A DNA stretch of 37,630 nt from Eubacteriales bacterium (lineage in GTDB: Bacteria > Bacillota > Clostridia > Oscillospirales > Oscillospiraceae): assembly GCA_030529655.1 (NCBI GenBank), contig JAUMWJ010000020.1:1-37630 (forward strand). Reading direction: 5' to 3'. Position numbers and translations under genes: made by a program. The notes beneath the pieces were generated by a model that made no database searches, was not told where the DNA came from, and worked only from the letters and a program-made list of their open reading frames with translations. This document shows positions 1,735 through 35,251 of the stretch, piece by piece (positions within the stretch are counted from its first letter, which is position 1; each line of letters starts with the position of its first letter).

Positions 1735-4383
1735 ATGCCACATCCCTATCATGGCTTGAACGAACTGCGTGAGATGTTCCTCAAGTTCTTTGAGACCAAA
1801 GACCATCTGCGTCTGCCCAGTTTCTCGCTGGTGCCCCAGAACGATAAATCCATTCTGCTCATCAATGCAGGTATGACTCCCATGAAGCCCTGGTTCAAGG
1901 GCGAGGAGGAGCCTCCCCGTAAGCGCGTATGTACCTGCCAGAAGTGCATTCGTACCGGCGATATTGAAAACGTGGGTAAGACCGCACGCCACGGTACCTA
2001 TTTTGAAATGCTGGGTAACTTCTCTTTCGGCGATTACTTCAAGCACGAGGCCATTGCCTGGTCCTGGGAATTCCTGACCAGTCCCGAGTGGGTGGGCTTG
2101 GAGGCCGACCGCCTCTATCCCAGCGTTTATCAGGACGATGACGAGGCATGGAACATCTGGCACGATGAGATCGGCATTCCTGCCGAGAAGATCTTCCGCT
2201 TCGGCAAGGAAGATAACTTCTGGGAGCACGGTTCCGGCCCCTGCGGCCCCTGCTCCGAGATCTATTACGACCGCGGCGAGGAGTATGGCTGCGGTAAGCC
2301 CGGTTGCACCGTGGGCTGCGACTGCGACCGCTACATCGAGATCTGGAACAACGTGTTCTCCCAGTTCGATAACGACGGCCACAACAACTACACCGAGCTG
2401 AAGCAGAAGAATATCGACACCGGTATGGGTCTGGAGCGCCTGGCCTGCGTGTGCCAGAACGTGATGAGCCTCTTTGATGTGGATACCGTGATGAACATCA
2501 CCAACAAGGTGTCGGAGCTGACCGGCGCCCACTATGGCGAGAGCCAGAAGCGCGACGTGTCCCTGCGCGTGATCACCGATCATATCCGCAGTGCCACCTT
2601 CATGATCTGTGACGGTATCCTGCCTTCCAATGAGGGTCGTGGTTACGTGCTGCGCCGCCTGCTGCGCCGCGCTGCCCGTCACGGTAAGCTGTTGGGCGTG
2701 AACGATCCGTTCCTCTATGAAGTGGTGGATACCGTTGTCCACGAGAACGAGTGCCAGTATGCCGACCTGCGCGAAAAGCAGGCCTATATCACCAAGGTGA
2801 TCCGCACCGAGGAGGAGAACTTCGCCCGCACTATCGATGGCGGTATGAAGATCTTCGGCGAGCTGCTTCAAGAGCACAAGGCAAAGGGCGAGCAGGTGTT
2901 CTCCGGTGCCGATGCCTTCAAACTGTACGATACCTTTGGTTTCCCCATTGACCTGACCATTGAAATGGCCGCCGATGAGGGCCTGACCGTAGACGAGGAG
3001 GCCTTCCAGTCCCTGATGCAGGAGCAGAAGGTCCGTGCCCGTGAGGCGCGCAAGGCCTTGGGCGATCTGGGCTGGGCAGGTGTGGATCTGGGCAAGGAGA
3101 TTCCCGCCACCGAGTTCGTGGGTTATGATAAGAGCGTCACTGAGGGCAAGATCGTTGCCATCGTGGCCGAGGGCGAAGTCCGTGACGCTATCGTTGCCGG
3201 TGCTGACGCCATCGTAGTGCTGGATCAGACCACCATGTACGCCGAGATGGGCGGTCAGGTGGCCGACCACGGTACCATTAAGTGCGGTGATGCCGTGTTC
3301 ACTGTTAATGACGTGCAGAAGAATAAGGGCGGCAAGTACCTGCATTACGGTAAGCTGACAAGTGGCGAAATGAAGGTGGGCGATGTAGCCGCTGTGGCCA
3401 TTGACGATAGCCGCCGCGACGCGATCCGCCGCGCCCATACCGCTACCCATCTGCTGCAGAGTGCACTGGAAAAGGTGCTGGGCGATCATGTCCATCAGGC
3501 AGGTTCTCTGGTAGAGCCCGATCATCTGCGCTTTGACTTCACCCATTTCTCCGCTGTGACCGCAGAGGAAATGGCAAAGATCAACGAACTGTTTGAGGAA
3601 TATACGCTGTCCGGCGAAACCGTGGAAACGCTGGTGCTGCCCATTGAAGAGGCCAAGAAGCTGGGCGCAACCGCCCTGTTCGGCGAGAAGTACGGCGACA
3701 CCGTTCGTGTGGTGAAGATGGGCGATGTTTCTATGGAGTTCTGCGGCGGTACTCATTTGAACAACACTGCAAAAGTGGGTGCGTTCCGTATCACCGGTGA
3801 GTCCTCCGTAGCTTCCGGCGTGCGCCGTATCGAAATGATCACCGGCAGTGCCGTGCGTCAGATGATGGACGACACCGACATGACCATGGCACAGGTGGCT
3901 GAGACCATTAAGGCTGCCAGCACAGCCGATATTCTGCGCCGTGCCCAGCAGCTCATGGACGAGCTGAAGGAAGAAAAGCGTGTCATCGAGCAGTACAAGG
4001 CCAAGGAATCTGCCGGCGGTGCTGATGATATGATCCGCAGCGCCAAGGAAATCGGCGGTGTGAAGGTAGTCACCAAGAAGCTGGGCGAGTGCGATGCCAA
4101 TGCGCTGCGTCAGTTGGGCGATGTGCTGCGCGATAAGGATGATTCCATCGTGGCTGCCATGGTGGCGACCAACGGCGCCAAGATCACCATTCAGGTAGTC
4201 TGCGGTAAGAATGCTGTGGGCAAGGGCATCAAGGCCGGAGACATTATCAAGTCCGTGGCTCCCATTATGGGCGGCAAGGGCGGCGGCAAGCCCGACAGCG
4301 CCATGGGCGGCGGCAGCGATGCCTCCAAGATCGATGAAGCTCTCTCCGCTGTGGAAACCTTCGTGGCGGAGAAGCTGAACTGA
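1735..4383 (+). CDS. alaS: Alanyl-tRNA synthetase
   Basis: This is a full-length 882-residue AlaRS that charges tRNA-Ala in the cytoplasm. The N-terminal class II aminoacylation domain has FFETKDHLRLPSFSLVP and INAGMTPMKPWF. The editing domain carries the zinc-binding HTATHLL and the later CGGTH motif. The C-terminal DHHA1 domain is glycine-rich (MGGKGGGKPDSAMGGG). AAAGGAG precedes the ATG. It is the second gene of the T-box operon, which explains its regulation by uncharged tRNA. The stop codon is separated by one base from the start of the DUF4250 gene. Nothing is missing. Confidence 0.98.
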   Translation: MPHPYHGLNELREMFLKFFETKDHLRLPSFSLVPQNDKSILLINAGMTPMKPWFKGEEEPPRKRVCTCQKCIRTGDIENVGKTARHGTYFEMLGNFSFGDYFKHEAIAWSWEFLTSPEWVGLEADRLYPSVYQDDDEAWNIWHDEIGIPAEKIFRFGKEDNFWEHGSGPCGPCSEIYYDRGEEYGCGKPGCTVGCDCDRYIEIWNNVFSQFDNDGHNNYTELKQKNIDTGMGLERLACVCQNVMSLFDVDTVMNITNKVSELTGAHYGESQKRDVSLRVITDHIRSATFMICDGILPSNEGRGYVLRRLLRRAARHGKLLGVNDPFLYEVVDTVVHENECQYADLREKQAYITKVIRTEEENFARTIDGGMKIFGELLQEHKAKGEQVFSGADAFKLYDTFGFPIDLTIEMAADEGLTVDEEAFQSLMQEQKVRAREARKALGDLGWAGVDLGKEIPATEFVGYDKSVTEGKIVAIVAEGEVRDAIVAGADAIVVLDQTTMYAEMGGQVADHGTIKCGDAVFTVNDVQKNKGGKYLHYGKLTSGEMKVGDVAAVAIDDSRRDAIRRAHTATHLLQSALEKVLGDHVHQAGSLVEPDHLRFDFTHFSAVTAEEMAKINELFEEYTLSGETVETLVLPIEEAKKLGATALFGEKYGDTVRVVKMGDVSMEFCGGTHLNNTAKVGAFRITGESSVASGVRRIEMITGSAVRQMMDDTDMTMAQVAETIKAASTADILRRAQQLMDELKEEKRVIEQYKAKESAGGADDMIRSAKEIGGVKVVTKKLGECDANALRQLGDVLRDKDDSIVAAMVATNGAKITIQVVCGKNAVGKGIKAGDIIKSVAPIMGGKGGGKPDSAMGGGSDASKIDEALSAVETFVAEKLN

Positions 4384-16657: not shown

Positions 16658-16908
16658 AAAAAAAGACCTTTCATCCCAAAACAAGGGACGAAAGGTTTCA
16701 AAGTTCTTCCGTGGTACCACCCAAATTCGCAGCAAAATAACTGCGCACTCGTTTCCCTGTAACGGAGGATGACCCGTCCGCGCATTTCCTCGCGGCAGCT
16801 CCCGGGCGAACACAGCAACACACTTCAAGTCGGCTTTCAGCCGGTGACCGACTCTCTCTGCTAAGTGACATCTCACTGCACTTCCCATTCGTAGCTTTTG
16901 AATGATTC
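16658..16908 (-). promoter_or_regulatory. T-box leader (phenylalanine) with terminator
   Basis: On the minus strand the T-box core GGGTGGTACCAC (16710-16721) is followed by a terminator. The stem is 16666-16677 with 16685-16696 (one mismatch or wobble) and the T run is 16658-16664. Upstream about 190 bases contain stem I to III sequence. A TTC triplet in the 5' half is a candidate phenylalanine specifier. Starvation for charged tRNA-Phe should allow pheST transcription. Confidence 0.9.
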
Positions 16909-21225: not shown

Positions 21226-21344
21226 GTCGCATGCCTCCTTTGAGGCAAGTATTTCCCGTTTTGGGGAAATTTATCATGTGTTGAATGCTTTTGCATTAAC
21301 AATAGAAATCGCAGAAACAGGAAAGGAGGATTATGGGATCACCC

Positions 21345-21500
21345 CAACACAAGCGCCATGCGCCTATCTAAAAAATAGGATAACGAGGAGGAGAGAGAAT
21401 CGAACATTCGGCGGATGCTCTCCCGTGTGGTCCGGACGCGATACGCAGCCAATAAATATGCAGGTAACTGCAAAACAAAGGGGCTGTGACCGGAGATAAA
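21345..21500 (+). ncRNA. glmS self-cleaving ribozyme (GlcN6P-responsive)
   Basis: The region carries the glmS ribozyme core. AAGCGCC marks the cleavage site (before G at 21353). ACGAGGAGGAGAG and the CGGCGGATGCTCTCCCG stretch fit the P2/P2.1/P3 core, and GGGGCTGTGACCGGAG follows. Glucosamine-6-phosphate acts as coenzyme for self-cleavage, after which the mRNA is degraded. It lies immediately upstream of glmS, as expected. A 7-bp inverted repeat (21251-21270) and a weak promoter (TTGAAT, 16 bases, TAGAAA, 21281-21308) precede it. Confidence 0.93.
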
Positions 21501-23555: not shown

Positions 23556-24488
23556 ATGCACGGTGAGCTGGACCGACTGCTTCGACAGGTGAAGACCATG
23601 TCGATTGTCGGTATGTGTAAAAATGCAGGTAAGACGACGGTGTTGAATTGGATTTTGGCCAACAGTCGGCGTGACCGCATACTGGGTCTGACTTCTATTG
23701 GCCGCGATGGCGAGTCCACGGACGTTGTCACGGGAACGGAGAAACCCAGCATTTATGTGCCGGAAGGCACCATGCTGGCTACGGCCAAGGATATGCTTCG
23801 CCTTTGCGATATAACCAAGGAAATACTGATCACTACCGGCATTCCCACGCCGTTGGGTGAAGTCATTATTTTACGCGCCAAAAGTGACGGTTATGTGCAG
23901 TTGGCAGGACCGTCTATTACAGCGCAGCTTAAGGGCGTATCTCGGCAGTTCTTTGATTTAGGCGCCGATCAGTCGATTATTGACGGCGCGTTGGGACGCA
24001 AGAGCTTAGGTGCTCGTGCAGTAGCAGAGGGCGTGATTCTCTGCACCGGCGCCAGTTACCATATGAGCATGGAAAAGGTGATTGCAGATACCGCCAATAT
24101 CTATCGCATTATGAATATCCCTAAGGCGGATTCGCTGCCGGAGGAAATGACTGAGAGTTTGGAAAAGACGCTGAAAGAGCGCGGAGAGGCGTTGGTCGGC
24201 GGTGCGCTGACCGATACGATGGTGCTGCCGCTGCTGCGAAGCGGTGTGCTGCGCGGCGGACGGTTGGTGGTGAAGGATCCCAGCAAGGTGTTGCTGACAA
24301 CAGATACGTTGGACAAGCTGCAAATGCGTGATGTGAAGCTGGAAACCGCCGAAGCGGCGCGCACTTTGTGTGTCACCATCAACCCTGTTTCTGCTTACGG
24401 CTGGAAGTTTGACAAAGAGGAGTTCATGGCGAAAATGCGCGAAGCTGTAGATTGTCCTGTGATCAATGTAAAGGAGGAACTGGCATGA
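23556..24488 (+). CDS. kamB: Putative lysine 5,6-aminomutase reactivase subunit KamB (P-loop)
   Basis: This 310-residue protein has a Walker A motif GMCKNAGKT (residues 19-27) and a GLTSIGRDGEST segment, of the kind seen in P-loop ATPases of kam clusters. In Clostridium sticklandii-type clusters KamB and the MutS-like KamC are annotated as the reactivase of the B12-dependent 5,6-aminomutase, which is inactivated when its cobalamin is lost. The ATG at 23556 has GAGAGGAG nine bases upstream and is preferred over TTG at 23538. Its stop overlaps the kamC start in ATGA. A -10-like TATAAT (23511-23516) lies upstream, but no clear -35. It is not under the riboswitch, which lies further downstream. 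Confidence 0.85.
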   Translation: MHGELDRLLRQVKTMSIVGMCKNAGKTTVLNWILANSRRDRILGLTSIGRDGESTDVVTGTEKPSIYVPEGTMLATAKDMLRLCDITKEILITTGIPTPLGEVIILRAKSDGYVQLAGPSITAQLKGVSRQFFDLGADQSIIDGALGRKSLGARAVAEGVILCTGASYHMSMEKVIADTANIYRIMNIPKADSLPEEMTESLEKTLKERGEALVGGALTDTMVLPLLRSGVLRGGRLVVKDPSKVLLTTDTLDKLQMRDVKLETAEAARTLCVTINPVSAYGWKFDKEEFMAKMREAVDCPVINVKEELA

Positions 24489-25945
24489 TCAGTATCCGTT
24501 TTGAAGAAAGAGAAAAAATCGGCTTGCAATTTGTGCTGGAATCTCTGCACGGCTGCAGCCCCTTTGGCTTAGAGCGTATTCGCCGTCTGCGTTTTTACGC
24601 ACCGGAGGAGCGTGAGGAGCTGGAAACCGAACTATATAATGTCTATCAGGCAAAGCAAGCGGCAGAGGAACTGAAGGATGTATACAACAAGATCATGACC
24701 GTCCTGTGCCAGATGAAAGATATTCGTCACTCTCTGCGCCGCTGTCAGGCCGGAGAATGTCCTGATCATGTGGAGCTGTTTGAGATCAAGGGATATTTGC
24801 AGCGACTGGAAAGTTTGATTCCTTTGTTTGATGAAGCGCAGACAGTGGCACAATTTCGCAACCTTGCCTTCCATGATCCGTCCTGTGCTTTGGCTGTTCT
24901 TGATCCGGAAAATACCCGTTCCCGAGGTTTCTATATTCCCGACAGCTCCACAGTTCGCCTAAAGGAGATCCGTCAGGCAAAAAAACAGATTGAGGAACAG
25001 CTTTATCACGCACAGACGGATGCGGAAAAGGATGGTCTGCGCCAAAAGCGCACCCGAATCTGTGCAGAAGAAGAGAGCGAAGAGATGAAAGTCCGCAAGG
25101 CCATGGGCGCAGCACTTGCCCCGATGGTGGACGATCTTCTTTGCGATGCCGATACCGCCGGCAGGCTGGACTTTATCATCCAAAAAGCCCTTTTTGCTGT
25201 CCGTTTTGGCGGCGTATTGCCTGAGATCACAGAAACGGAACTGGAACTGACAGATATGGTGAATCCTGAGCTGGTGGATCTGCTGCAGGAAAAGGGGAGA
25301 TCCTTTGTTCCTGTGTCCATAGCGTTGGATCACGGTGCCACCGTTATCACCGGCGCTAATATGGGCGGTAAGTCCGTGGCAATGAAGACAGTGGCGCTGA
25401 ATGTGTTGCTGCTGCAGGCCGGCTTTCTTGTCTGCGCCAAAAAGGCAAGAATGCCGCTGTTTAACAGCGTAAAAATGCTCTTTGACGATCTGCAGTCCAT
25501 TCAAAGTGGCCTGAGCGGTTTTGGTTCGGAGATCGTGGAATTCCAGAAGGCTTTGAAGGAAGTGGAGCAGGGCTATGCGCTGTTTTTGCTGGATGAATTT
25601 GCCCGTGGCACCAACCCCGATGAGGGTGCGGTGATCGTGCAGGCGGTGACGAAATATCTCAGCGAAGTCAACGCCATTTCTTTGCTGACAACCCATTATG
25701 ACAAGGTGGCAGAGCATGCCGATGCCCATTATCAGATCATCGGTCTGCGTGATGTGGATCCCGAGCAGATCCGCATGGAACTGGCGGCTACCGGGGAAGA
25801 TGGCGTGGCGGTGATCGCCCGTCATATGAACTACGGTCTTTACCGCGTGGAGGGCAAGTCCGACTGTCCCCGTGATGCGCTGAATATCTGTCGTATGCTG
25901 TCACTGAAGCCGGAAATCCTGCGGAAGATAGAAGAGGCTTATTGA
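24485..25945 (+). CDS. kamC: MutS-like ATPase KamC (lysine 5,6-aminomutase reactivase)
   Basis: This 486-residue protein's C-terminal half is a MutS-type ATPase: Walker A TGANMGGKS (about residues 289-297), a Q-loop/D-loop-like LQSIQSGLSGFGSEIVE, Walker B YALFLLDEFARGTNPDEGA, and the switch LLTTHYDKVAEH. The N-terminal MutS mismatch and connector domains are lacking; instead a helical lever-like part (ELETELYNVYQAKQAAEEL) is present. DNA mismatch repair is therefore unlikely. Together with KamB it is expected to use ATP to remove damaged cobalamin from KamDE. AAGGAGG precedes the ATG at 24485. Confidence 0.87.
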   Translation: MISIRFEEREKIGLQFVLESLHGCSPFGLERIRRLRFYAPEEREELETELYNVYQAKQAAEELKDVYNKIMTVLCQMKDIRHSLRRCQAGECPDHVELFEIKGYLQRLESLIPLFDEAQTVAQFRNLAFHDPSCALAVLDPENTRSRGFYIPDSSTVRLKEIRQAKKQIEEQLYHAQTDAEKDGLRQKRTRICAEEESEEMKVRKAMGAALAPMVDDLLCDADTAGRLDFIIQKALFAVRFGGVLPEITETELELTDMVNPELVDLLQEKGRSFVPVSIALDHGATVITGANMGGKSVAMKTVALNVLLLQAGFLVCAKKARMPLFNSVKMLFDDLQSIQSGLSGFGSEIVEFQKALKEVEQGYALFLLDEFARGTNPDEGAVIVQAVTKYLSEVNAISLLTTHYDKVAEHADAHYQIIGLRDVDPEQIRMELAATGEDGVAVIARHMNYGLYRVEGKSDCPRDALNICRMLSLKPEILRKIEEAY

Positions 25946-26001: not shown

Positions 26002-26029
26002 TTGACAAATGTGACGAAAAGGATATAAT
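26002..26029 (+). promoter_or_regulatory. Strong promoter of the lysine operon
   Basis: TTGACA (26002-26007), 16 bases and TATAAT (26024-26029) are perfect sigma-A boxes. They lie 21 bases before the riboswitch P1 5' strand (26050). Confidence 0.85.
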
Positions 26030-26049
26030 TTAAGTATCGGATTCCATAT

Positions 26050-26223
26050 ATAGTCAATAGAGGCGCGAGCGACAGGGTACTTTTTTGCATGGGACAGGCA
26101 CCGGCAGCAAAGAAGGAAGGGGTTGTTCGCCGAAAGAATAAAGCTCGCCTGCGTTTTGTTCTTGGTATTGTCGCGTAAACGGCAATACTGTCATGTTGTT
26201 CAACATGGAGCGCTATTGGTCAA
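26050..26223 (+). promoter_or_regulatory. Lysine riboswitch (L box), predicted ON switch
   Basis: The RNA contains lysine-aptamer hallmarks: AGAGGCGCGA after P1, GAAGGAAGGGGTTGTTCGCCGAA in the middle, and ACTGTCATG...GGAGCGCTAT at the 3' end. P1 can form between 26053-26060 (GTCAATAG) and 26213-26220. The same 3' strand lies inside the 5' arm of the following terminator (26209-26223). Lysine-stabilised P1 would thus stop the terminator forming and allow transcription. Classical lysine riboswitches of biosynthesis genes do the reverse. It precedes the catabolic operon kal to kamE, for which induction by lysine makes sense. Confidence 0.9.
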
Positions 26224-26248
26224 CACCCTTGACCGATAGCGCTTTTTT
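26209..26248 (+). terminator. Terminator of the lysine riboswitch
   Basis: A 15-bp stem 26209-26223 with 26229-26243 (one G-T wobble), 5-base loop CACCC, then a T run to 26248. Its 5' arm shares sequence with the aptamer P1 3' strand, so the two are mutually exclusive. Confidence 0.9.
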
Positions 26249-26323
26249 CATGCCCAAGTGCTAAAGGCCGGACAAAAGGAATGCTGAAAAGAAGATACCA
26301 AATTTTGAAGGAGGAAAAATCTT

Positions 26324-26722
26324 ATGGAAAAGATGACATCTCTGCTCCGCCTGCGTATGAGTGCTAAGGACGCACATTACGGCGGAAACCTGGTTGACGG
26401 CGCACACATGGTGCACCTGTTTGGTGACGTGGCTACCGAGCTGCTGATCAAGTGCGACGGTGACGAAGGTCTGTTCTGTGCATACGACAACATTGAGTTC
26501 CTGGCTCCTGTTTATGCCGGTGACTACATCGAAGCTTACGGCGAGATCGAGAAGATCGGCAACACCTCTCGTACCATGAAGTTCGAAGCCCGCAAGGTTA
26601 TCGTTTCCCGTGGCGACATCAGCGCTTCCGCTGCCGATGTTCTGGCTGAGCCCATCGTGGTTTGCCGTGCACACGGTACCTGCGTCACTCCTAAGGATTG
26701 CCAGCGTATTGAGCGCAAGTAA
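26324..26722 (+). CDS. kal: 3-aminobutyryl-CoA ammonia lyase
   Basis: This 132-residue small hotdog-fold protein starts [27 protein letters not shown], with the [18 protein letters not shown] segment. It matches Kal of the lysine fermentation pathway, which removes ammonia from (S)-3-aminobutyryl-CoA to give crotonyl-CoA. AAGGAGG is before the ATG. It is the first gene after the riboswitch. Confidence 0.93.
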
Positions 26723-26736
26723 GAGAGGGATACGTA

Positions 26737-27564
26737 ATGGAAAAGCTGATTATCACCGCTGCTATCTGCGGCGCCGAAGTTACGAAGGCTTCCAACCCCG
26801 CTGTTCCTTATACCGTTGAAGAGATGGTGCGTGAGGCAAAGTCCGCTTACGAAGCAGGCGCTGCCATTCTGCACATCCATGTCCGTGAGGACGACGGTAC
26901 TCCCACTCAGGATCGTGAACGCTTCCGCGTTATCATGGACGCTATCCGCAAGGAGCTGCCCGATGTCATCATGATCCCCTCTACCGGTGGTGCCACCGGT
27001 ATGAGCCCCGAAGAGCGTCTGCAGCCCACCGAGCTGTTCCCTGAAATGGCTACATTGGACTGCGGTACCTGCAACTTCGGCGATGAGATTTTCGATAACA
27101 CCATGCCCACCATGCGTGCTTTCGGTAAGCGTATGCTGGAAAATGACATTAAGCCCGAGTATGAGTGCTTTGAGATCGGCCATCTGGATACCATCCTGAC
27201 CATGGCTAAGAAGGGTGAAGTGCCTGCTCACCCCATGCAGTTCAACTTCGTGCTGGGTGTCAACGGCTGCACTCCCGCCACTGTCCCCAATCTGTGCCAC
27301 CTGGTGAGCCAGATTCCTGCCGGTTCCACCTGGACCGTTACCGGTGTCGGTAAGTCCGCCTGGACCATGGCTGCTGCCGGTATCGCTATGGGCGGTAACG
27401 TCCGCGTCGGCTTTGAGGACAATGTCTATCTGGGCAAGGGCCACAAGGCCGCATCCAATGGCGAGTTGGTTGCTAAGGTCGTCCGCATGGCGAAGGAGTT
27501 GGGTCGTGAGATCGCCACTCCTGCTGAGGCTCGTGAGATCCTGAGTCTCAAGCCCCTGAAGTAA
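26737..27564 (+). CDS. kce: 3-keto-5-aminohexanoate cleavage enzyme
   Basis: This 275-residue BKACE-family protein has Glu14, the zinc-binding HIH motif (His46, His48 in ILHIHVRED), the STGG segment and GFEDN near residue 226. Kce condenses 3-keto-5-aminohexanoate with acetyl-CoA to give acetoacetate and 3-aminobutyryl-CoA. The GAGAGGG-type ribosome site is weak, but the gene lies just 14 bases after kal. Codon usage is strongly biased, as in highly expressed genes. Confidence 0.96.
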   Translation: MEKLIITAAICGAEVTKASNPAVPYTVEEMVREAKSAYEAGAAILHIHVREDDGTPTQDRERFRVIMDAIRKELPDVIMIPSTGGATGMSPEERLQPTELFPEMATLDCGTCNFGDEIFDNTMPTMRAFGKRMLENDIKPEYECFEIGHLDTILTMAKKGEVPAHPMQFNFVLGVNGCTPATVPNLCHLVSQIPAGSTWTVTGVGKSAWTMAAAGIAMGGNVRVGFEDNVYLGKGHKAASNGELVAKVVRMAKELGREIATPAEAREILSLKPLK

Positions 27565-27608: not shown

Positions 27609-28661
27609 ATGGCACAGCTGAAAGGCAACAAGTACGGTACCCACCGCGTGATCGAGCCCAAGGGCGTTCTGACTCAGGCCGCTTGGAAGATCGACAACGA
27701 CATGGACAAGAAGTATTCCAACGAGATCATCTGCGATGTTATCTCCCTGAACGTTGACTCGGCTTCTTTCACTCAGATTTCTGAGGCTTGCGGCGGCGAT
27801 GAGAAGAAGATCGGCGAAATGATCATGGGTATTGTCGCTGAGCGCGGCAAGCAGCAGAACCCCGTGACCGGTTCCGGCGGTATGTTCATCGGTAAGGTCG
27901 CTTTCATCGGCGAAGACCTGCTGGCAAAGCCCGATTTCGACCTGAAGGTCGGCGATAAGATCGCTTCCCTGGTGTCCCTGTCCATGACTCCCCTGAAGAT
28001 CAAGGAGATCAAGGCCATCCACAAGGAAATCGACCGCGTTGACATCGTTGGTCAGGCTGTTCTGTTTGAGTCTGCTCTGTACGCAAAGCTGCCCGAGGAT
28101 ATGTCTGAGCCTCTGGCCCTGGCCGCTCTGGACGTTGCCGGTGCTCCCGCACAGGCACGCAAGCTGCCCAAGGAAGGCGACAGCGTTCTGATCCTGGGTG
28201 CTAATGGTAAGTCCGCCGTTCTGTGCGGCTACGAAGCCATGAAGAAGGTCGGCCCCAAGGGTAAGGTCGTTGGTGTTGTCCGCAAGGCTTCTCAGGTTCC
28301 TTTCCTGAAGGAACTGGGCGTTTACACTGATGTTGTTGTCGCCGACTGCACCAAGCCCGTTGAGGTTATGGAAGCTGCTCTGGCCGCTAACGATGGCAAG
28401 GAGTACGATATCTCCATTTGCTGCGTGAACATCGAGTCCTGCGAGATGTCCGCTATCCTGCCCGTACACGATGACGGTCTGGTATACTTCTTCTCCATGG
28501 CTACTTCCTTCACCAAGGCTGCTCTGGGCGCTGAGGGTATCGGCAAGGATGTCACTATGATCGTTGGTAACGGCTACACCAAGAACCACGCCAAGATCAC
28601 TCTGGACGTACTGCGTGAGAACGAGAAGCTGCGCAAGCTGTTCGATTCCAAGTACTGCTAA
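27609..28661 (+). CDS. kdd: L-erythro-3,5-diaminohexanoate dehydrogenase
   Basis: This 350-residue protein opens MAQLKGNKYGTHRVIEPKGVLTQAAWKIDND, characteristic of Kdd, and has a Rossmann-like LILGANGKSAVLCGYEAMKK nucleotide-binding turn. It oxidises 3,5-diaminohexanoate to 3-keto-5-aminohexanoate with NAD+. AGGAGG precedes the ATG. An 86-base gap to kamA holds a hairpin. Confidence 0.96.
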   Translation: MAQLKGNKYGTHRVIEPKGVLTQAAWKIDNDMDKKYSNEIICDVISLNVDSASFTQISEACGGDEKKIGEMIMGIVAERGKQQNPVTGSGGMFIGKVAFIGEDLLAKPDFDLKVGDKIASLVSLSMTPLKIKEIKAIHKEIDRVDIVGQAVLFESALYAKLPEDMSEPLALAALDVAGAPAQARKLPKEGDSVLILGANGKSAVLCGYEAMKKVGPKGKVVGVVRKASQVPFLKELGVYTDVVVADCTKPVEVMEAALAANDGKEYDISICCVNIESCEMSAILPVHDDGLVYFFSMATSFTKAALGAEGIGKDVTMIVGNGYTKNHAKITLDVLRENEKLRKLFDSKYC

Positions 28662-28747: not shown

Positions 28748-29998
28748 ATGAAGACTCGTAATGGTCTGTTCGCTAATGTTCCCGAAGAACAGTGGAACGA
28801 TTGGCATTGGCAGGTTGATAACCGCGCTGAAACCGTCGAAGATCTGAAGCGTTACATGACCCTGACTCCCGATGAGGAAGAAGGCGTTCGCAAGACTCTG
28901 GGCAAGCTGCGTATGGCTATCACTCCGTACTATCTGTCCCTGATCGATCTGGACGATCCCTTTGATCCTATCCGCAAGATGGCTATTCCCCGCGCTGAGG
29001 AGCTGGAGTATGCCGATTACGAAGACGCCGATCCTCTGCACGAGGATACCGACTCTCCCGTTCCCGGCCTGACTCACCGTTATCCCGACCGCGTGCTGCT
29101 GCTGATCACTGACCAGTGCTCCATGTACTGCCGTCACTGCACTCGTCGTCGTTTCGCCGGTCAGAATGACTGCGAAGTGGCTACCGCTCAGATCGACAAG
29201 TGCATCGAATACGTTGCCAACCATCCTGAGGTTCGCGACGTCCTGCTGTCCGGCGGTGACTCTCTGATGGTCTCCGACGAGATGCTCGAGTACATCATCT
29301 CCAAGGTTCGCGCTATTCCTCACGTGGAAATCGTTCGCCTGGGTTCCCGTACTCCCGTTGTCTGCCCCCAGCGTATCACTCCCGAGCTGTGCAACATGCT
29401 GAAGAAGTATCATCCCGTGTGGCTGAACACTCACTTCAACACCCCCAAGGAGTTCACTCCCGAAGCTGCCAAGGCTTGCGCTATGCTGGCTGACGCTGGT
29501 ATCCCTCTGGGCAACCAGTCCGTGCTGCTGGCCGGTGTCAATGACTGCTCTCACGTGATGATGGAGCTGGTTCATGGCCTGGTCAAGATGCGTGTACGTC
29601 CTTACTACATCTATGCTTGCGATCCTTCCCTGGGTCTGAGCCACTTCCGTACCCCTGTTTCCAAGGGTATCGAAATCATGGAAGCTCTGCGCGGTCATAC
29701 CTCCGGTTACTGCATCCCCACCTTCGTGGTCGACGCACCGGGCGGTGGCGGCAAGACTCCCGTTATGCCCAACTACCTGATTTCCCAGACTCCTCGCAAG
29801 GTGATCCTGCGTAACTTCGAGGGCGTCATCACTTCCTACACCGAGCCCGAGCACTATGTCCAGAATTGCCACTGCGACGTCTGCACCGGCAAGAAGGTGG
29901 CAGAGAAGACCGGCGTGGCATGGGTTGCTCAGGGTACTCCTCAGCGTTATCTGGAGCCCACCAAGCTGCTGCGTAACGAGCGTCACGTGAAGAAATAA
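28748..29998 (+). CDS. kamA: Lysine 2,3-aminomutase (radical SAM, PLP)
   Basis: This 416-residue enzyme has the same length as the Clostridium subterminale enzyme. The radical SAM cluster motif is CSMYCRHC (Cys124, Cys128, Cys131). The PLP lysine is Lys336 in PGGGGKTPVMPN. The acidic residues that bind the lysine side chain are Asp292 (YACDPSLG) and Asp329 (VVDAPGG), so the substrate is indeed lysine. It makes L-beta-lysine. AAAAGGAG precedes the ATG. A second cysteine cluster (CHCDVC) lies near the C-terminus. Confidence 0.98.
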   Translation: MKTRNGLFANVPEEQWNDWHWQVDNRAETVEDLKRYMTLTPDEEEGVRKTLGKLRMAITPYYLSLIDLDDPFDPIRKMAIPRAEELEYADYEDADPLHEDTDSPVPGLTHRYPDRVLLLITDQCSMYCRHCTRRRFAGQNDCEVATAQIDKCIEYVANHPEVRDVLLSGGDSLMVSDEMLEYIISKVRAIPHVEIVRLGSRTPVVCPQRITPELCNMLKKYHPVWLNTHFNTPKEFTPEAAKACAMLADAGIPLGNQSVLLAGVNDCSHVMMELVHGLVKMRVRPYYIYACDPSLGLSHFRTPVSKGIEIMEALRGHTSGYCIPTFVVDAPGGGGKTPVMPNYLISQTPRKVILRNFEGVITSYTEPEHYVQNCHCDVCTGKKVAEKTGVAWVAQGTPQRYLEPTKLLRNERHVKK

Positions 29999-30009
29999 GA
30001 GGTATCATA

Positions 30010-31572
30010 ATGGAAAGCAAACTCGGCTTAAATTTTGAATTAGTCGATAAAGCTCGTCAGTCCGCTGCACGCGTTGCAGCGGACACCCAGAGCTTCATCG
30101 ATCAGCACACCACGGTCACCGTGGAGCGTGCTGTCTGCCGCCTGCTGGGTATCGATGGCGTCAATGAGATGGACGTCCCCATGCCCAACGTTGTGGTTGA
30201 CTATCTGATGGAGAACAGCCTGCTGCCCGTTGGCGCTGCCTGGAACATTGGTAACGCTATGCTGGAAACCGGTTTGGATCCTCAGGGCGTGGCAGAGAAG
30301 CTGGACAAGGGCGAAATCGACCTTTGTAAGCTGCCCGCACACACTGACAGCGAGATCCGTGCCGTCATCGCTCCCATCGTGGCAAAGACCATCGAGCGCA
30401 TCAATAAGAATGTTGCCCAGCGTAACGCTTATCTGAACAAGTTCGGTGATAAGGAAGGCCCCTACCTGTATATCATCGTGGCTACCGGTAATATCTATGA
30501 GGATATTATTCAGGCAAAGGCCGGTGCCAAGCAGGGTGCTGACATCATCGCCGTGATCCGTACCACCGGTCAGTCCCTGCTGGACTACGTGCCTTACGGC
30601 GCTACCACCGAGGGCTTTGGCGGTACCTATGCAACCCAGGAGAACTTCCGCCTGATGCGTGCCGCATTGGACGAAGTGGGTGAGGAGCAGCATCGCTACA
30701 TCCGCCTGTGCAACTATTGCTCCGGCTTGTGCATGCCCGAAATCGCCGCTATGGGCGCTCTGGAGCGTCTGGATGTCATGCTGAACGATGCTCTGTACGG
30801 CATTCTGTTCCGCGACATCAATATGCAGCGTACCATCGTTGACCAGTACTTCTCCCGTATTATCAACGGTTATGCCGGCGTTATCATCAACACCGGTGAG
30901 GATAACTATCTGACCACCGATGACGCTATCACCTCCGCTCATACCGTTCTGGCATCTCAGTTCCTCAACGAGGCATTTGCCAAGACCGCAGGTATGCGTG
31001 AGGAGCAGATGGGTCTGGGTCACGCTTTCGAGATGGATCCCGATGTGGAGAACACCTTCCTGTATGAGCTGGCACAGGCACAGATGGCTCGCGAAATCTT
31101 CCCCAATGCACCTTTGAAGTATATGCCTCCCACGAAGTTCATGACCGGTAACATCTTCCGTGGCCATATCCAGGACTCCCTGTTTAACATGGTGACCATC
31201 CTGACCGGCCAGAAGCTGCATCTGCTGGGCATGCTGACCGAGGCAATTCACACGCCCTTTATGTCTGACCGTGCTCTGTCCATCGAGAATGCGCAGTATA
31301 TCTTCCGCACCATGAAGGATCTGGGCAGCGAACTGACCTATAAAGAGGGCGGCATCATCCGTACCCGTGCTAACGAGGTTCTGACCAAGGCAACCGATCT
31401 GCTCTCTGAGATCGAGAAGCTGGGTCTGTTCACCACCATTGAGAAGGGTATCTTCGCCGATGTTAAGCGTCCTAAGGACGGCGGCAAGGGCCTGGCCGGT
31501 GTCGTTGTGAAGGATGACAAGTACTTCAATCCGTTCATTGAAGAGATGAAAGGTAAGGTGGCAGCAGAATGA
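30010..31572 (+). CDS. kamD: Lysine 5,6-aminomutase alpha subunit
   Basis: This 520-residue TIM-barrel subunit (large alpha subunit) has the KamD-typical EDNYLTTDDAITSAHTVLASQ and FGGTYATQENFRLMRAAL. With KamE it binds adenosylcobalamin and PLP and converts beta-lysine to 3,5-diaminohexanoate. The ribosome site is GAGGTA. The stop overlaps the kamE start by four bases (ATGA), keeping the subunits in step. Confidence 0.97.
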   Translation: MESKLGLNFELVDKARQSAARVAADTQSFIDQHTTVTVERAVCRLLGIDGVNEMDVPMPNVVVDYLMENSLLPVGAAWNIGNAMLETGLDPQGVAEKLDKGEIDLCKLPAHTDSEIRAVIAPIVAKTIERINKNVAQRNAYLNKFGDKEGPYLYIIVATGNIYEDIIQAKAGAKQGADIIAVIRTTGQSLLDYVPYGATTEGFGGTYATQENFRLMRAALDEVGEEQHRYIRLCNYCSGLCMPEIAAMGALERLDVMLNDALYGILFRDINMQRTIVDQYFSRIINGYAGVIINTGEDNYLTTDDAITSAHTVLASQFLNEAFAKTAGMREEQMGLGHAFEMDPDVENTFLYELAQAQMAREIFPNAPLKYMPPTKFMTGNIFRGHIQDSLFNMVTILTGQKLHLLGMLTEAIHTPFMSDRALSIENAQYIFRTMKDLGSELTYKEGGIIRTRANEVLTKATDLLSEIEKLGLFTTIEKGIFADVKRPKDGGKGLAGVVVKDDKYFNPFIEEMKGKVAAE

Positions 31573-32357
31573 GTAGCGGACTGTATAATACCCATAAAAT
31601 CGATTTCGATACCACGCTGGACCTGACTCGTCTGAAGCCCTACGGCGATACCATGAACGATGGTAAGGTGCAGACCAGCTTTACGCTGCCCGTTAAGGAT
31701 GACGAGCGCGGTGAAGAGGCTGCCCGCCAGATCGCAAAGAAGATGGGTTTGGAAGAGCCCAATGTTGCCTATCATAAGGCGCTGGATAAGGAGTTCACTT
31801 TCTATGTCGTATACGGCAGCTGCGTGCACTCTGTGAACTATGAGGACATTCATGTCGTTACCGTGGAATCCGATGTGATGAGCATGGAAGAGACCAACGA
31901 TTATATCCGCGAGAATATCGGCCGCAAGGTCGTCATCGTGGGTGCCTCCACCGGTACCGATGCCCATACCGTGGGTATCGATGCCATCATGAACCGTAAG
32001 GGCTTCGCCGGTCACTATGGCCTGGAGCGCTACGACATGATCGAGGCTTACAATCTGGGTTCTCAGGTTCCCAATGAGGAATTCATCAAGAAGGCTGTGG
32101 AACTGAAGGCAGATGCTCTGTTGGTTTCCCAGACCGTTACCCAGAAGGATGTCCATATCCAGAACCTGACCAACCTCATCGAGCTGTTGGAGGCCGAAGG
32201 TCTGCGCGACAAGTTTGTTGTCTGCTGCGGCGGTCCCCGTATCACTCATGAGCTGGCTAAGGAGCTGGGCTATGACGCTGGTTTCGGTGCCGGCAAGTAT
32301 GCTGACGATAACGCCAGCTTCATTGTGACCGAAATGGTCAAGCGCGGCATGAAATAA
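31569..32357 (+). CDS. kamE: Lysine 5,6-aminomutase beta subunit
   Basis: This 262-residue B12-binding subunit has DAHTVG with His133, the lower cobalt ligand, in DxHxxG. Lys144 (MNRK) is at the position of the PLP-binding lysine known in the C. sticklandii enzyme. The Rossmann-like end has FVVCCGGPRITHELAKEL. All key residues are present. It is the last gene before a hairpin and the promoter of the CoA transferase genes. Confidence 0.97.
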   Translation: MSSGLYNTHKIDFDTTLDLTRLKPYGDTMNDGKVQTSFTLPVKDDERGEEAARQIAKKMGLEEPNVAYHKALDKEFTFYVVYGSCVHSVNYEDIHVVTVESDVMSMEETNDYIRENIGRKVVIVGASTGTDAHTVGIDAIMNRKGFAGHYGLERYDMIEAYNLGSQVPNEEFIKKAVELKADALLVSQTVTQKDVHIQNLTNLIELLEAEGLRDKFVVCCGGPRITHELAKELGYDAGFGAGKYADDNASFIVTEMVKRGMK

Positions 32358-32477: not shown

Positions 32478-32541
32478 AAGACCGTTAAAAAAATAGCGAA
32501 TACTATTTTTGGGAGACCGAAAAAAACAAGGAGGAACAGAA

Positions 32542-33234
32542 ATGGCAAAGAAACCTGTGCTCACTGCCGCTGAGGCAGCGAAGATGATTCCCGATGGTGC
32601 TACCATTATGTGCGGTGGCTTCCTGGCTTGCGGTCAGGCTCGTGCAATCGTGAAGGAACTGGTCAAACTGGGTACCAAGGATCTGACCCTGATCGCTAAC
32701 GATATGGGTCGTGCAACCGGCCCCAAGGGTGAGGAGTTCTTCGGCATCGCTGAGCTGATCCACAATCATCAGGTCAAGCGCGTTATCGCAACTCACGTTG
32801 GTATGACTCCCGAAGTCGGCGCTCAGAACACTGAGGGCACTTTGGAAGTTAACCTGCTGCCCCAGGGCACTCTGGCTGAGTGCATCCGCGCTGACGGCGC
32901 TGGTCTGGGCGGCGTGCTGACGCCCGTTGGCGTTGACACCCTGATCGAGGATAGTCCCTTCTGCATGGGTAAGCAGACCATCGATGGTAAGGAGTACCTG
33001 CTGATGAAGCCCGTTCATGCTGATTTCGCTCTGCTGGGCGCTTACAAGTGCGATGAAATGGGTAACTGCTGGTACAAGGGCACCATGCGTAACTTCAACA
33101 CCGTGATGGCTACCGCCGCTGACGTTGTCATTGCTGAGTGCGAGTACATCGTCCCCGTTGGCGAGATCGAGCCCGAGAATGTTCATACCTACGGTATGTG
33201 CGTTGACTACATCGTGGAAGGAGACAGAAAGTAA
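32542..33234 (+). CDS. atoD: Butyryl-CoA:acetoacetate CoA-transferase alpha subunit (AtoD-type)
   Basis: This 230-residue 3-oxoacid CoA-transferase alpha subunit has IPDGATIMCGGFLACGQ near the N-terminus and PVGVDTLIEDSPF. The ATG at 32542 has AAGGAGG eight bases upstream and is preferred over the longer start at 32509, which falls in the leader hairpin. It works with AtoA to move CoA from butyryl-CoA to acetoacetate, releasing butyrate. The stop overlaps the atoA ATG by one base. Confidence 0.93.
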   Translation: MAKKPVLTAAEAAKMIPDGATIMCGGFLACGQARAIVKELVKLGTKDLTLIANDMGRATGPKGEEFFGIAELIHNHQVKRVIATHVGMTPEVGAQNTEGTLEVNLLPQGTLAECIRADGAGLGGVLTPVGVDTLIEDSPFCMGKQTIDGKEYLLMKPVHADFALLGAYKCDEMGNCWYKGTMRNFNTVMATAADVVIAECEYIVPVGEIEPENVHTYGMCVDYIVEGDRK

Positions 33235-33902
33235 TGGAAAAGTCCGAAATCAAAGGCTTTATTGCTAAGCGCTGCGCCAAGGAACTGAAGAATGGCGACG
33301 TCGTTAACCTGGGTATTGGCCTGCCCACTCTGATCCCCGGCTACCTGCCTGAGGGCGTTGAGCTGATCATCCACGCTGAGCTGGGTATCGTCAGCGCCGG
33401 CACCTCCCCCAAAGAGGGCGATGCTAACTATGATCCCTACCACGTTGTTGACGCCGGTGGCGCACCTTCTTCCGTGGCATTCGGTGGCGGCTTCATCGAT
33501 TCCGCTTCCAACTTCGGTCTGATCCGTGGCGGTCACGTCGATGCTTGCTTCCTGGGCGCTCTGGAAGTTGACGCACAGGGCAACCTGGCCAACTGGATCA
33601 TCCCCGGCAAGAAGATGCCCGGTATGGGTGGCGCTATGGACCTGTGCGTCGGTGCTCGTAACTGCATCGTCTGCATGGAGCATACCGCTAAGGGTAACCC
33701 CAAGATCTTTGAAAAGTGCCGTCTGCCTCTGACCGCATCTCATTGTGTGAATAAGATCATCACTGAGATGTGCGTTCTGGAAGTCACTGAGAACGGCCTG
33801 GTCATGACTGAGATCAACCCCGAGTTCACCGTCGAGCAGGTGAAGGAAGCTACGGCAGCTCCTATCACTGTCGCTGAGAACCTGAAGTCCATGATCGACT
33901 GA
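33234..33902 (+). CDS. atoA: Butyryl-CoA:acetoacetate CoA-transferase beta subunit (AtoA-type)
   Basis: This 222-residue beta subunit has GDVVNLGIGLPTLIP and HAELGIVSAG, where the glutamate corresponds to the catalytic CoA-carrying residue, then GGAMDLCVGARNCIVCMEHTAKGNPKI. It regenerates acetoacetyl-CoA from the acetoacetate made by Kce, so the cycle is closed by thiolase elsewhere. A strong terminator follows. Confidence 0.93.
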   Translation: MEKSEIKGFIAKRCAKELKNGDVVNLGIGLPTLIPGYLPEGVELIIHAELGIVSAGTSPKEGDANYDPYHVVDAGGAPSSVAFGGGFIDSASNFGLIRGGHVDACFLGALEVDAQGNLANWIIPGKKMPGMGGAMDLCVGARNCIVCMEHTAKGNPKIFEKCRLPLTASHCVNKIITEMCVLEVTENGLVMTEINPEFTVEQVKEATAAPITVAENLKSMID

Positions 33903-34006: not shown

Positions 34007-35251
34007 ATGAAAACCTTTCTGAGAAGCAATCGCTTCATTCTGCTCATGCTATCAGGCATTGTTTTGGGCTGTGTTTTTGGAGCATTGTGGCCCACCTTTG
34101 CCGGCAATCTATCATTTCTCGGCACCATTTTTATCAACATGATGTTCTGCGTCGTGGTTCCCATGGTATTTTTTTCCATCGCCTCTGCCATAGCAAACAT
34201 GAAAAGCGCAAAGCGTGCCGGCAAAGTGATGGGCTGTACGGTAATAACATTTTTGATTACGGCCGCCATTGCAGGTGTTCTTATGTACATAGTCTGTCGC
34301 ATAATCCCACTGGTCAATGGACAGTATGTAGTGGCTGCCGGCGAGATGGGGGAAACGCTGGGTGTAAGTGAGATGATCGTCAATTTCTTTACCAAACCCG
34401 ATTTCACAGAACTGTTCAGTCGTCGTGCGATTTTGCCTCTGATCGTCGCAGCCGTTTTGTTTGGCTTCGGCGTGCAAATGTCAGGCGGTCCGGAAACCAA
34501 AACGGGAGTATGGATGAATGACATGACAAATTGCATTATGAAAACTGTAAAAATCATTACATATTATGCCCCTGTCGGATTTTTTGGGTTCTTTGCTTCG
34601 TTGGTGGCGACATACGGACCGGAGCTTATCGGGGATTACAGTCGCACGCTGATCATCTACTATGTAATGAGCCTTGCCTATCTGTTTATCTTCTTTCCCA
34701 TTTACGCGCGATTTGGGGGAGGAAAAGGAGCCGCAAAATTGATGTTCAGCAAGCTGTTTCGTCCGGCAGCCATGTCTTTCGGTAGTTGCTCCAGCGTGGC
34801 AACGATTCCTACTAATATGGACGTTTCTCAAGAATCCGGTATCAGCAAAGATGTCAGTGACATCGTGCTTCCGTTAGGTGCTACTATGCACATGGACGGC
34901 TCTGCCATGTCAGCAATTATCAAGGTGGCATTCCTGTTTGGTATCTTCGGTCAGGATTTTAGTACCGGAAAAGCCATTCTTGCTATCATTGTGGCAGTAT
35001 TCTCCTCGGTGGCGATGTCCGGCATACCGGGCGGAGGCGGTACAGGCGAATTGGTTATTTGCACCATATTTTTCCCGGATCAACTGGCGATCGCTTATCC
35101 TATTGCCATTGCATTGGGCAATTTAGTCGATCCGCCGGCTACCATGGTAAATGCAGCAGGGGACTATGTGGTTTCGTTTATTGTCAGTCGGTTTGCAGAC
35201 GGTAAGAATTGGCTGCAAGAACAACTTGTGAAAAATATTGAAAAGGACTGA
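34007..35251 (+). CDS. DAACS-family cation:amino acid/dicarboxylate symporter with altered substrate site
   Basis: This 414-residue protein has about eight membrane segments and two re-entrant loops of the DAACS fold: GSCSSVATIPTNM (HP1), TMHMDGSAM (TM7 Na+ site; NMDGT in GltPh) and LVDPPATMVNAAGD (TM8). In GltPh, D394 binds the substrate amino group and R397 the side-chain carboxylate. Here D375 is kept but the R397 position is Ala378, so a glutamate/aspartate substrate is unlikely. It follows the lysine cluster after a terminator, and uptake of lysine or another amino acid is a guess from context. AGGAGG precedes the ATG. Confidence 0.85.
   Translation: MKTFLRSNRFILLMLSGIVLGCVFGALWPTFAGNLSFLGTIFINMMFCVVVPMVFFSIASAIANMKSAKRAGKVMGCTVITFLITAAIAGVLMYIVCRIIPLVNGQYVVAAGEMGETLGVSEMIVNFFTKPDFTELFSRRAILPLIVAAVLFGFGVQMSGGPETKTGVWMNDMTNCIMKTVKIITYYAPVGFFGFFASLVATYGPELIGDYSRTLIIYYVMSLAYLFIFFPIYARFGGGKGAAKLMFSKLFRPAAMSFGSCSSVATIPTNMDVSQESGISKDVSDIVLPLGATMHMDGSAMSAIIKVAFLFGIFGQDFSTGKAILAIIVAVFSSVAMSGIPGGGGTGELVICTIFFPDQLAIAYPIAIALGNLVDPPATMVNAAGDYVVSFIVSRFADGKNWLQEQLVKNIEKD

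Follow-up and report, generated by a model that had tools for sequence, protein, structure and literature searches.

A lysine riboswitch predicted to turn on a lysine fermentation operon in an Oscillospiraceae bacterium

To our knowledge, characterized lysine riboswitches repress the genes that they control. Those of biosynthesis and transport genes are OFF switches, of which the Bacillus subtilis lysC riboswitch is the type. The window studied here, a whole 37,630-nucleotide stretch of DNA from an Eubacteriales bacterium of the Oscillospiraceae, has a lysine riboswitch upstream of genes for lysine degradation. Would lysine turn such genes off or on? An earlier note on this DNA proposed that they are turned on, by a P1 helix that keeps a terminator from forming. 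We examined the leader, its folding, and its counterparts in other genomes.

The aptamer, the terminator, and the genes downstream

A lysine aptamer had been recognized by its core motifs, and cmscan agreed. RF00168 matched positions 26050 to 26223 of the plus strand at 106.8 bits (E value of 1.1e-27; the gathering score is 30 bits), and the match covered the full length of the model (positions 1 to 182). It was the single lysine riboswitch found in the organism's genome, a 1.6-Mb draft that is 97% complete. The aptamer lies 5′ of kal, kce, kdd, and kamADE, all of which scored over their family cut-offs. We infer that its ligand is L-lysine. There is only the faintest chance that the leader responds to another ligand, or that control is by mRNA processing with the terminator being secondary. 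The aptamer core was judged from the Rfam alignment alone, but a match of this score located 5′ of lysine degradation genes argues against something else being sensed.

P1 is made by positions 26053 to 26060 (GTCAATAG) and 26213 to 26220 (CTATTGGT), which form 8 base pairs, 2 of them G-U. The terminator has its 5′ arm at 26209 to 26223 (AGCGCTATTGGTCAA) and its 3′ arm at 26229 to 26243 (TTGACCGATAGCGCT), separated by a 5-base loop. Its stem has 15 base pairs, one of them U-G, and folding of the isolated hairpin gave −23.4 kcal/mol. The T run is at 26243 to 26248, with its first T doubling as the last base of the stem. All of these plus-strand positions were re-read from the sequence and were as first described. 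The whole P1 3′ strand is inside the terminator 5′ arm. Therefore, P1 and the terminator are mutually exclusive, as had been claimed, and this is the geometry of an ON switch that works by P1-terminator exclusion. Elsewhere in the 37.6-kb window, 15 unbroken pairs with a 3- to 8-base loop and a T-rich tail had three other starts, one on the plus strand and two on the minus strand. A simple terminator scan missed the 15-bp terminator, picking a hairpin at 26163 to 26190 instead, and was not used.

A promoter-like site, TTGACA-16-TATAAT, is present upstream of the aptamer (26002 to 26029, plus strand) and matches the consensus at 12 of 12 positions. Transcription would be expected to start near 26036. 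At a 9-of-12 threshold, the promoter scan found two sites in the region versus a shuffle mean of 1.0, and TTGACA and TATAAT were visible by eye in the 25 genus-like leaders that we viewed. A ribosome-binding region with GGAGG precedes kal (26310 to 26323, plus strand) and is outside the terminator. A leader peptide 3′ of the terminator (ATGCCCAAGTGCTAA in the window) was considered and rejected by eye; it is not kept in the genus alignment.

The genes that follow on the plus strand are predicted to make up a lysine fermentation route. They are kal, encoding 3-aminobutyryl-CoA ammonia lyase (26324 to 26722; NF052388, 192.6 bits, cut-off of 160); kce, encoding 3-keto-5-aminohexanoate cleavage enzyme (KCE) (26737 to 27564; NF052387, 417.2 bits, cut-off of 382); kdd, encoding 3,5-diaminohexanoate dehydrogenase (27609 to 28661; NF052381, 256.6 bits, cut-off of 200); kamA, encoding lysine 2,3-aminomutase (28748 to 29998; TIGR03820, 601.6 bits, cut-off of 525.4); and kamD and kamE, encoding the alpha and beta subunits of lysine 5,6-aminomutase (30010 to 31572; NF052384, 911.2 bits, cut-off of 600; and 31569 to 32357; NF052385, 413.9 bits, cut-off of 280). 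Next are genes for the A and B subunits of a CoA transferase (32509 to 33902, with the subunits at 32509 to 33234 and 33234 to 33902; TIGR02429 and TIGR02428, both over cut-off) and a sodium:dicarboxylate symporter family protein (34007 to 35251; PF00375, 272.5 bits). The symporter gene is possibly the last of the operon. The gene for the aminomutase reactivase ATPase, kamC (24452 to 25945, plus strand; NF052383, 502.8 bits, cut-off of 300), is upstream of the riboswitch and therefore outside its direct control.

There was no match to lysA or dapA in the organism's own genome (the 97%-complete draft). As a positive control, the same search of 14 control genomes found matches in 13 and in 14, respectively. 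With the caution that a draft genome calls for, this suggests that the organism probably imports its lysine, consistent with a lysine consumer. Metagenome assemblies labeled Oscillospiraceae, Ruminococcaceae, or Clostridia are its nearest named records, and several of these come from ruminant guts.

The window also contains a T-box leader (16681 to 16901, minus strand; RF00230, 96.1 bits), with open reading frames 3′ of it that resemble pheS and pheT by length and order only. Also present is a glmS ribozyme (21341 to 21498, plus strand; RF00234, 72.4 bits), followed by a 611-amino-acid open reading frame that is likely glmS.

Folding and the direction of control

We think it very probable that this leader is a transcriptional ON lysine riboswitch for kal-kce-kdd-kamADE. 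The sequence itself shows the aptamer, P1, the terminator that overlaps P1, and the operon; ON as the direction and a choice made during transcription are predictions. RNA polymerase would start near 26036 and make the aptamer. Bound lysine would hold P1 closed, which would make the P1 3′ strand unavailable and block the terminator until polymerase had left the T run, so that kal-kce-kdd-kamADE would be transcribed. Without lysine, P1 would open, its 3′ strand would pair with 26229 to 26243, and transcription would stop at about 26248.

We folded growing transcripts of the leader. P1, with its outermost G shifted by one base to pair with 26221, belonged to the free minimum (−62.8 kcal/mol) of the transcripts with 3′ ends at 26223 and 26228. 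At 26236, the minimum was −67.3 kcal/mol, with the top of the terminator formed, versus −65.0 kcal/mol when P1 was forced. At 26250, the terminator state was at −82.6 kcal/mol versus −66.5 kcal/mol with P1 forced. A P1 minimum early and a terminator minimum at 26250 fit, in this model, a choice made in time. In transcripts ending at 26208 or 26236, the P1 5′ strand paired with the P5 region instead.

The earlier note held that no separate antiterminator is needed, and folding bore this out. When the P1 5′ strand was barred from pairing, the terminator still formed (−80.2 kcal/mol). Therefore, no separate antiterminator is hidden in the ligand-free state, in which, by folding, the terminator forms unaided as in the ON class. 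A lower-energy antiterminator that used other sequence would have told against the proposal. Folding of the window leader found no strong competitor of this kind; in shorter transcripts, GGCGC of the aptamer paired weakly with part of the terminator arm.

The terminator's advantage over P1 at 26250 is about 16 kcal/mol in this ligand-free energy model. Therefore, lysine must win by timing. An advantage of this size would also suit an aptamer that no longer switches, with the terminator acting as a constant attenuator. There is a case of that kind in the two-terminator c-di-GMP riboswitch Bc1, which is described as binding its ligand while expression is unchanged (PMC11218506). However, the lysine aptamer is kept in all of the genomes of the genus that have KCE over cut-off (22 of 22), and the overlap has been maintained despite sequence changes in both terminator arms. 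These observations make a constant attenuator very unlikely and favor a leader that still switches ON with lysine.

Conservation and comparison with other lysine riboswitch leaders

KCE was over cut-off in 22 of the 32 genomes of the genus that we examined (the window's own included), and a lysine riboswitch was found in all 22. Two more (G302 and G313) have a truncated kce beside a lysine riboswitch. Among the other eight, three have a riboswitch: before kal at a contig end (G295), before an aspartokinase-like gene (G296), and before transport-type genes (G303).

A covariance check on kal/kce leaders, which had been proposed in the earlier note, came out differently for the two helices. The terminator arms change together, but P1 shows little covariation. 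We compared 40 distinct arm sets from a smaller set of leaders. Pairing was kept in 33 to 40 of them at terminator positions 4 to 10 but in 27 at position 2. Up to six pair types occurred at one position with pairing kept. In a swap test covering 15 distinct arm types, no swapped terminator arm paired better than the leader's own for 12 of them. The same test on P1 gave 6.6 of 8 pairs for own arms versus 6.2 for swapped arms, and P1 by itself says little beyond shared sequence.

Across wider groups, the scans covered the flank that was fetched with each KCE locus (about 1.5 kb, and up to 4 kb for named loci). Among the 36 loci scanned of 80 named ones, a riboswitch was near KCE in 28 of 31 from Firmicutes and in none of 5 from Bacteroidales. 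The contigs of L157 and L177 end too near kal to hold a leader; at L161, the space before kal is sufficient, and no riboswitch was found in it. Riboswitches were present at 1 of 20 class-level KCE loci (20 of 30 were scanned), at 9 of 11 family-level loci, and at order-level loci in 13 of 15 over the KCE cut-off versus 0 of 5 below it. The lysine riboswitch is not universal on the lysine fermentation pathway.

Flavonifractor-like loci such as L149 have the riboswitch directly before kce, and tblastn found no kal near these kce genes in the fetched stretch. At a kce locus of another family (L053), there is a cobalamin riboswitch nearby (3095 to 3300). Lysine 5,6-aminomutase needs B12.

If lysine turns these operons on, their leaders might be built differently from those of other lysine riboswitches. 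We collected 170 riboswitch leaders from relatives, from the class, and from KCE loci. Their sources were all 49 places found by one search, 70 places from a second search (30 in the best-scoring genomes and 40 hand-picked from plus-strand rows among the matches listed), and leaders beside KCE loci. Dropping 11 duplicates, defined by the same 120 bases around the aptamer end, left 159. These comprised 65 before kal/kce, referred to here as catabolic, and 94 before other genes, which served as controls. The 65 catabolic leaders are not independent, and 23 are from the window's genus. The control genes were asd-like (43), dapA-like (20), antiporter (11), solute-binding protein (10), permease (6), and amino-acid kinase (2) genes, with one amidohydrolase-like gene and one leader without an open reading frame at a contig end. 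For the first six clusters, the names come from a Pfam search with one representative each (aspartate-semialdehyde dehydrogenase, dihydrodipicolinate synthase, amino-acid kinase, Na+/H+ antiporter, solute-binding protein, and amino acid permease).

Leaders were scored by a fixed rule: a hairpin had to have a U tract and to include 4 or more bases of the P1 3′ core among its paired bases. This rule replaced a first, looser hairpin search, which had mixed long weak hairpins with terminators. At −8 kcal/mol, such a hairpin was found in 63 of 65 catabolic leaders versus 6 of 94 controls, and at −15 kcal/mol, the counts were 62 of 65 versus 1 of 94. We also shuffled the bases downstream of each leader, keeping T runs. 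One shuffle per leader at −8 kcal/mol gave 14 of 65 for catabolic leaders and 6 of 94 for controls. With three shuffles per leader, the catabolic and control counts were 29 of 195 and 16 of 282, respectively, at −8 kcal/mol and fell to 1 of 195 and 2 of 282, respectively, at −15 kcal/mol. Therefore, the controls are at chance level, whereas the catabolic leaders are far above it. An earlier, smaller set scored by the same rule gave 45 of 47 versus 6 of 94. Allowing longer hairpins gave 63 of 65 versus 17 of 94, and so the control count depends on the rule. The controls share the aptamer and P1 with the catabolic leaders, and these counts suggest that P1-terminator geometry follows gene function. 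They also support the ON direction proposed in the earlier note, which we still regard as a prediction.

The two catabolic leaders that failed the rule were L032 and L155. L032 (from genome G096) is a kal leader with another layout. By eye, its P1 3′ strand can pair downstream, and a separate terminator follows; it may be ON through the extra helix. Among the six rule-positive controls, four (L225, L231, L239, and L250) have a hairpin that, judged by eye, resembles an antiterminator and overlaps a canonical terminator downstream.

The controls also show what the usual OFF switch would require, in which lysine promotes termination and an antiterminator, so far unseen in the window, forms without it. 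Control leaders look to be built in this way. We found a downstream terminator in 91 of 94. For 41 of these, pairing of the P1 3′ strand with the terminator's 5′ side was good enough that at most 2 of 50 shuffles equaled it. The window leader differs from this layout. Its terminator itself contains the P1 3′ strand, and the hairpin rule gives no P1-independent terminator between 26223 and kal. The sole other downstream candidate is a −7.1-kcal/mol hairpin inside kal, and folding shows no strong helix by which the operon could escape the terminator if P1 were absent. Also, it would make little sense to shut down lysine degradation just when lysine is abundant. Therefore, we consider an OFF switch very unlikely here, and an ON switch remains our reading of the window leader.

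Doubled leaders in relatives, and precedents

Twenty of the 65 catabolic leaders have a second terminator whose 5′ arm is made by another copy of the aptamer 3′ end. (The second-copy rule had given 21, from which L032 was dropped by eye.) This second copy lies 3′ of the first terminator and spans the aptamer from the P5 3′ arm through the junction to the P1 3′ strand. These leaders are from Flavonifractor or similar bacteria (L149, L150, L154, L155, L158, L162, L266, L267, and L269) and from others (L156, L153, L166, L260, L261, L263, L272, L273, L291, L293, and L295). L148, L292, and L294 resemble further doubled leaders by eye and were not counted by the rule. Among the 94 controls, the rule listed one (L085), within an apparent asd coding sequence.

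The copy tends to vary along with P5. There are seven P5 types, six of them testable; the seventh comprises nine leaders whose arm was cut off by the search pattern. For four types (L153, L166, L263, and L295), the best partner of the P5 5′ arm is its own copy. For the L156 type, its own copy ties with others, and for the L260 type, two other copies are better partners. A direct repeat of 51 bases with 90% identity is present in L156. Forcing P1 onto the second copy placed the hairpin of the first terminator inside P5 (structures of L150 and L263). P1 on the second copy was more stable than on the first in four of seven leaders tried (L150, L263, L295, and L166) and less stable in three (L156, L272, and L153). 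The unforced minimum was below both forced states in all seven.

We tentatively raise the possibility of a two-checkpoint design among the ON riboswitches of lysine fermenters, in which one aptamer would be read twice in succession for a sharper response or lower leak. The second copy would emerge as an arm of the second terminator after the first terminator, and the same aptamer 5′ part would re-close on it, while P5 took in the hairpin of the first terminator. In that case, the window's genus would be single-checkpoint, perhaps after losing the second. The rule found no second copy in the window leader (L001). Just after its T run, at 26249 to 26267, CATGCCCAAGTGCTAAAGG (look-alike CATGCCCAAGTGCTA) resembles a decayed second copy. 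An ATGCCC-like stretch is kept at this site in many leaders of the genus, and the rule finds no second terminator there.

The adenine pbuE ON riboswitch withholds its P1 strand from a terminator, and its ligand induces a gene that removes the ligand. The mechanism proposed for the window has the same logic, but the aptamer and ligand differ. The glycine gcv riboswitch is also described as having ON logic (PMC11477304). Glycine induces genes for its own degradation, as we propose for lysine in the window, again with a different aptamer and ligand. A lysine-ON riboswitch in Corynebacterium glutamicum (Zhou and Zeng 2015, as cited in PMC5584792) is reported to turn expression on with lysine, but it was engineered, not natural.

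The earlier note presented the window leader as an example of reversed logic. The geometry supports ON, but the idea is not new. Mukherjee, Barash, and Sengupta (2017; PMC5584792), citing Serganov and Patel (2009), called lysine riboswitches before kal/kce positively regulated in Clostridium sticklandii, Fusobacterium nucleatum, Thermoanaerobacter tengcongensis, and T. wiegelii. As in the window, this aptamer class precedes these genes, in Thermoanaerobacter behind a regulator gene. The words "terminator" and "antiterminator" are absent from the paper's main text, as are the Oscillospiraceae-type names that we searched for, so no P1-terminator mechanism is given there. Therefore, ON logic was already in print as a prediction for other bacteria. 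What is new here is a further member in another bacterial group, with a P1-terminator mechanism and a comparative test, and the doubled version in relatives adds new detail.

The nearest precedent that we met for doubled leaders is Bc1, which also has one aptamer and two terminators. Its second terminator is reported to stay intact and mask the response (PMC11218506). Unlike Bc1, the doubled leaders carry a copy of the aptamer 3′ end in the second terminator, but by analogy its lack of response may be a warning. Tandem lysine riboswitches, with 14 double arrangements with terminator stems described (PMC9481103), also have two lysine-linked terminators per leader. However, these are two whole riboswitches, whereas a doubled leader is one aptamer with a copied 3′ end. 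In the open-licence literature, we found no experiment on a natural ON lysine riboswitch or on a doubled lysine leader, and such work may exist elsewhere.

A large and consistent ON set would show an aptamer class switching the sign of its control by moving the terminator onto the P1 strand, and the set provides natural leaders for testing that sign change. It also offers a natural part inducible by lysine. If the doubled leaders do work in the proposed way, they would represent a new route to a sharper response from one aptamer. For the bacteria themselves, the ON reading predicts a control point for lysine fermentation in the gut.
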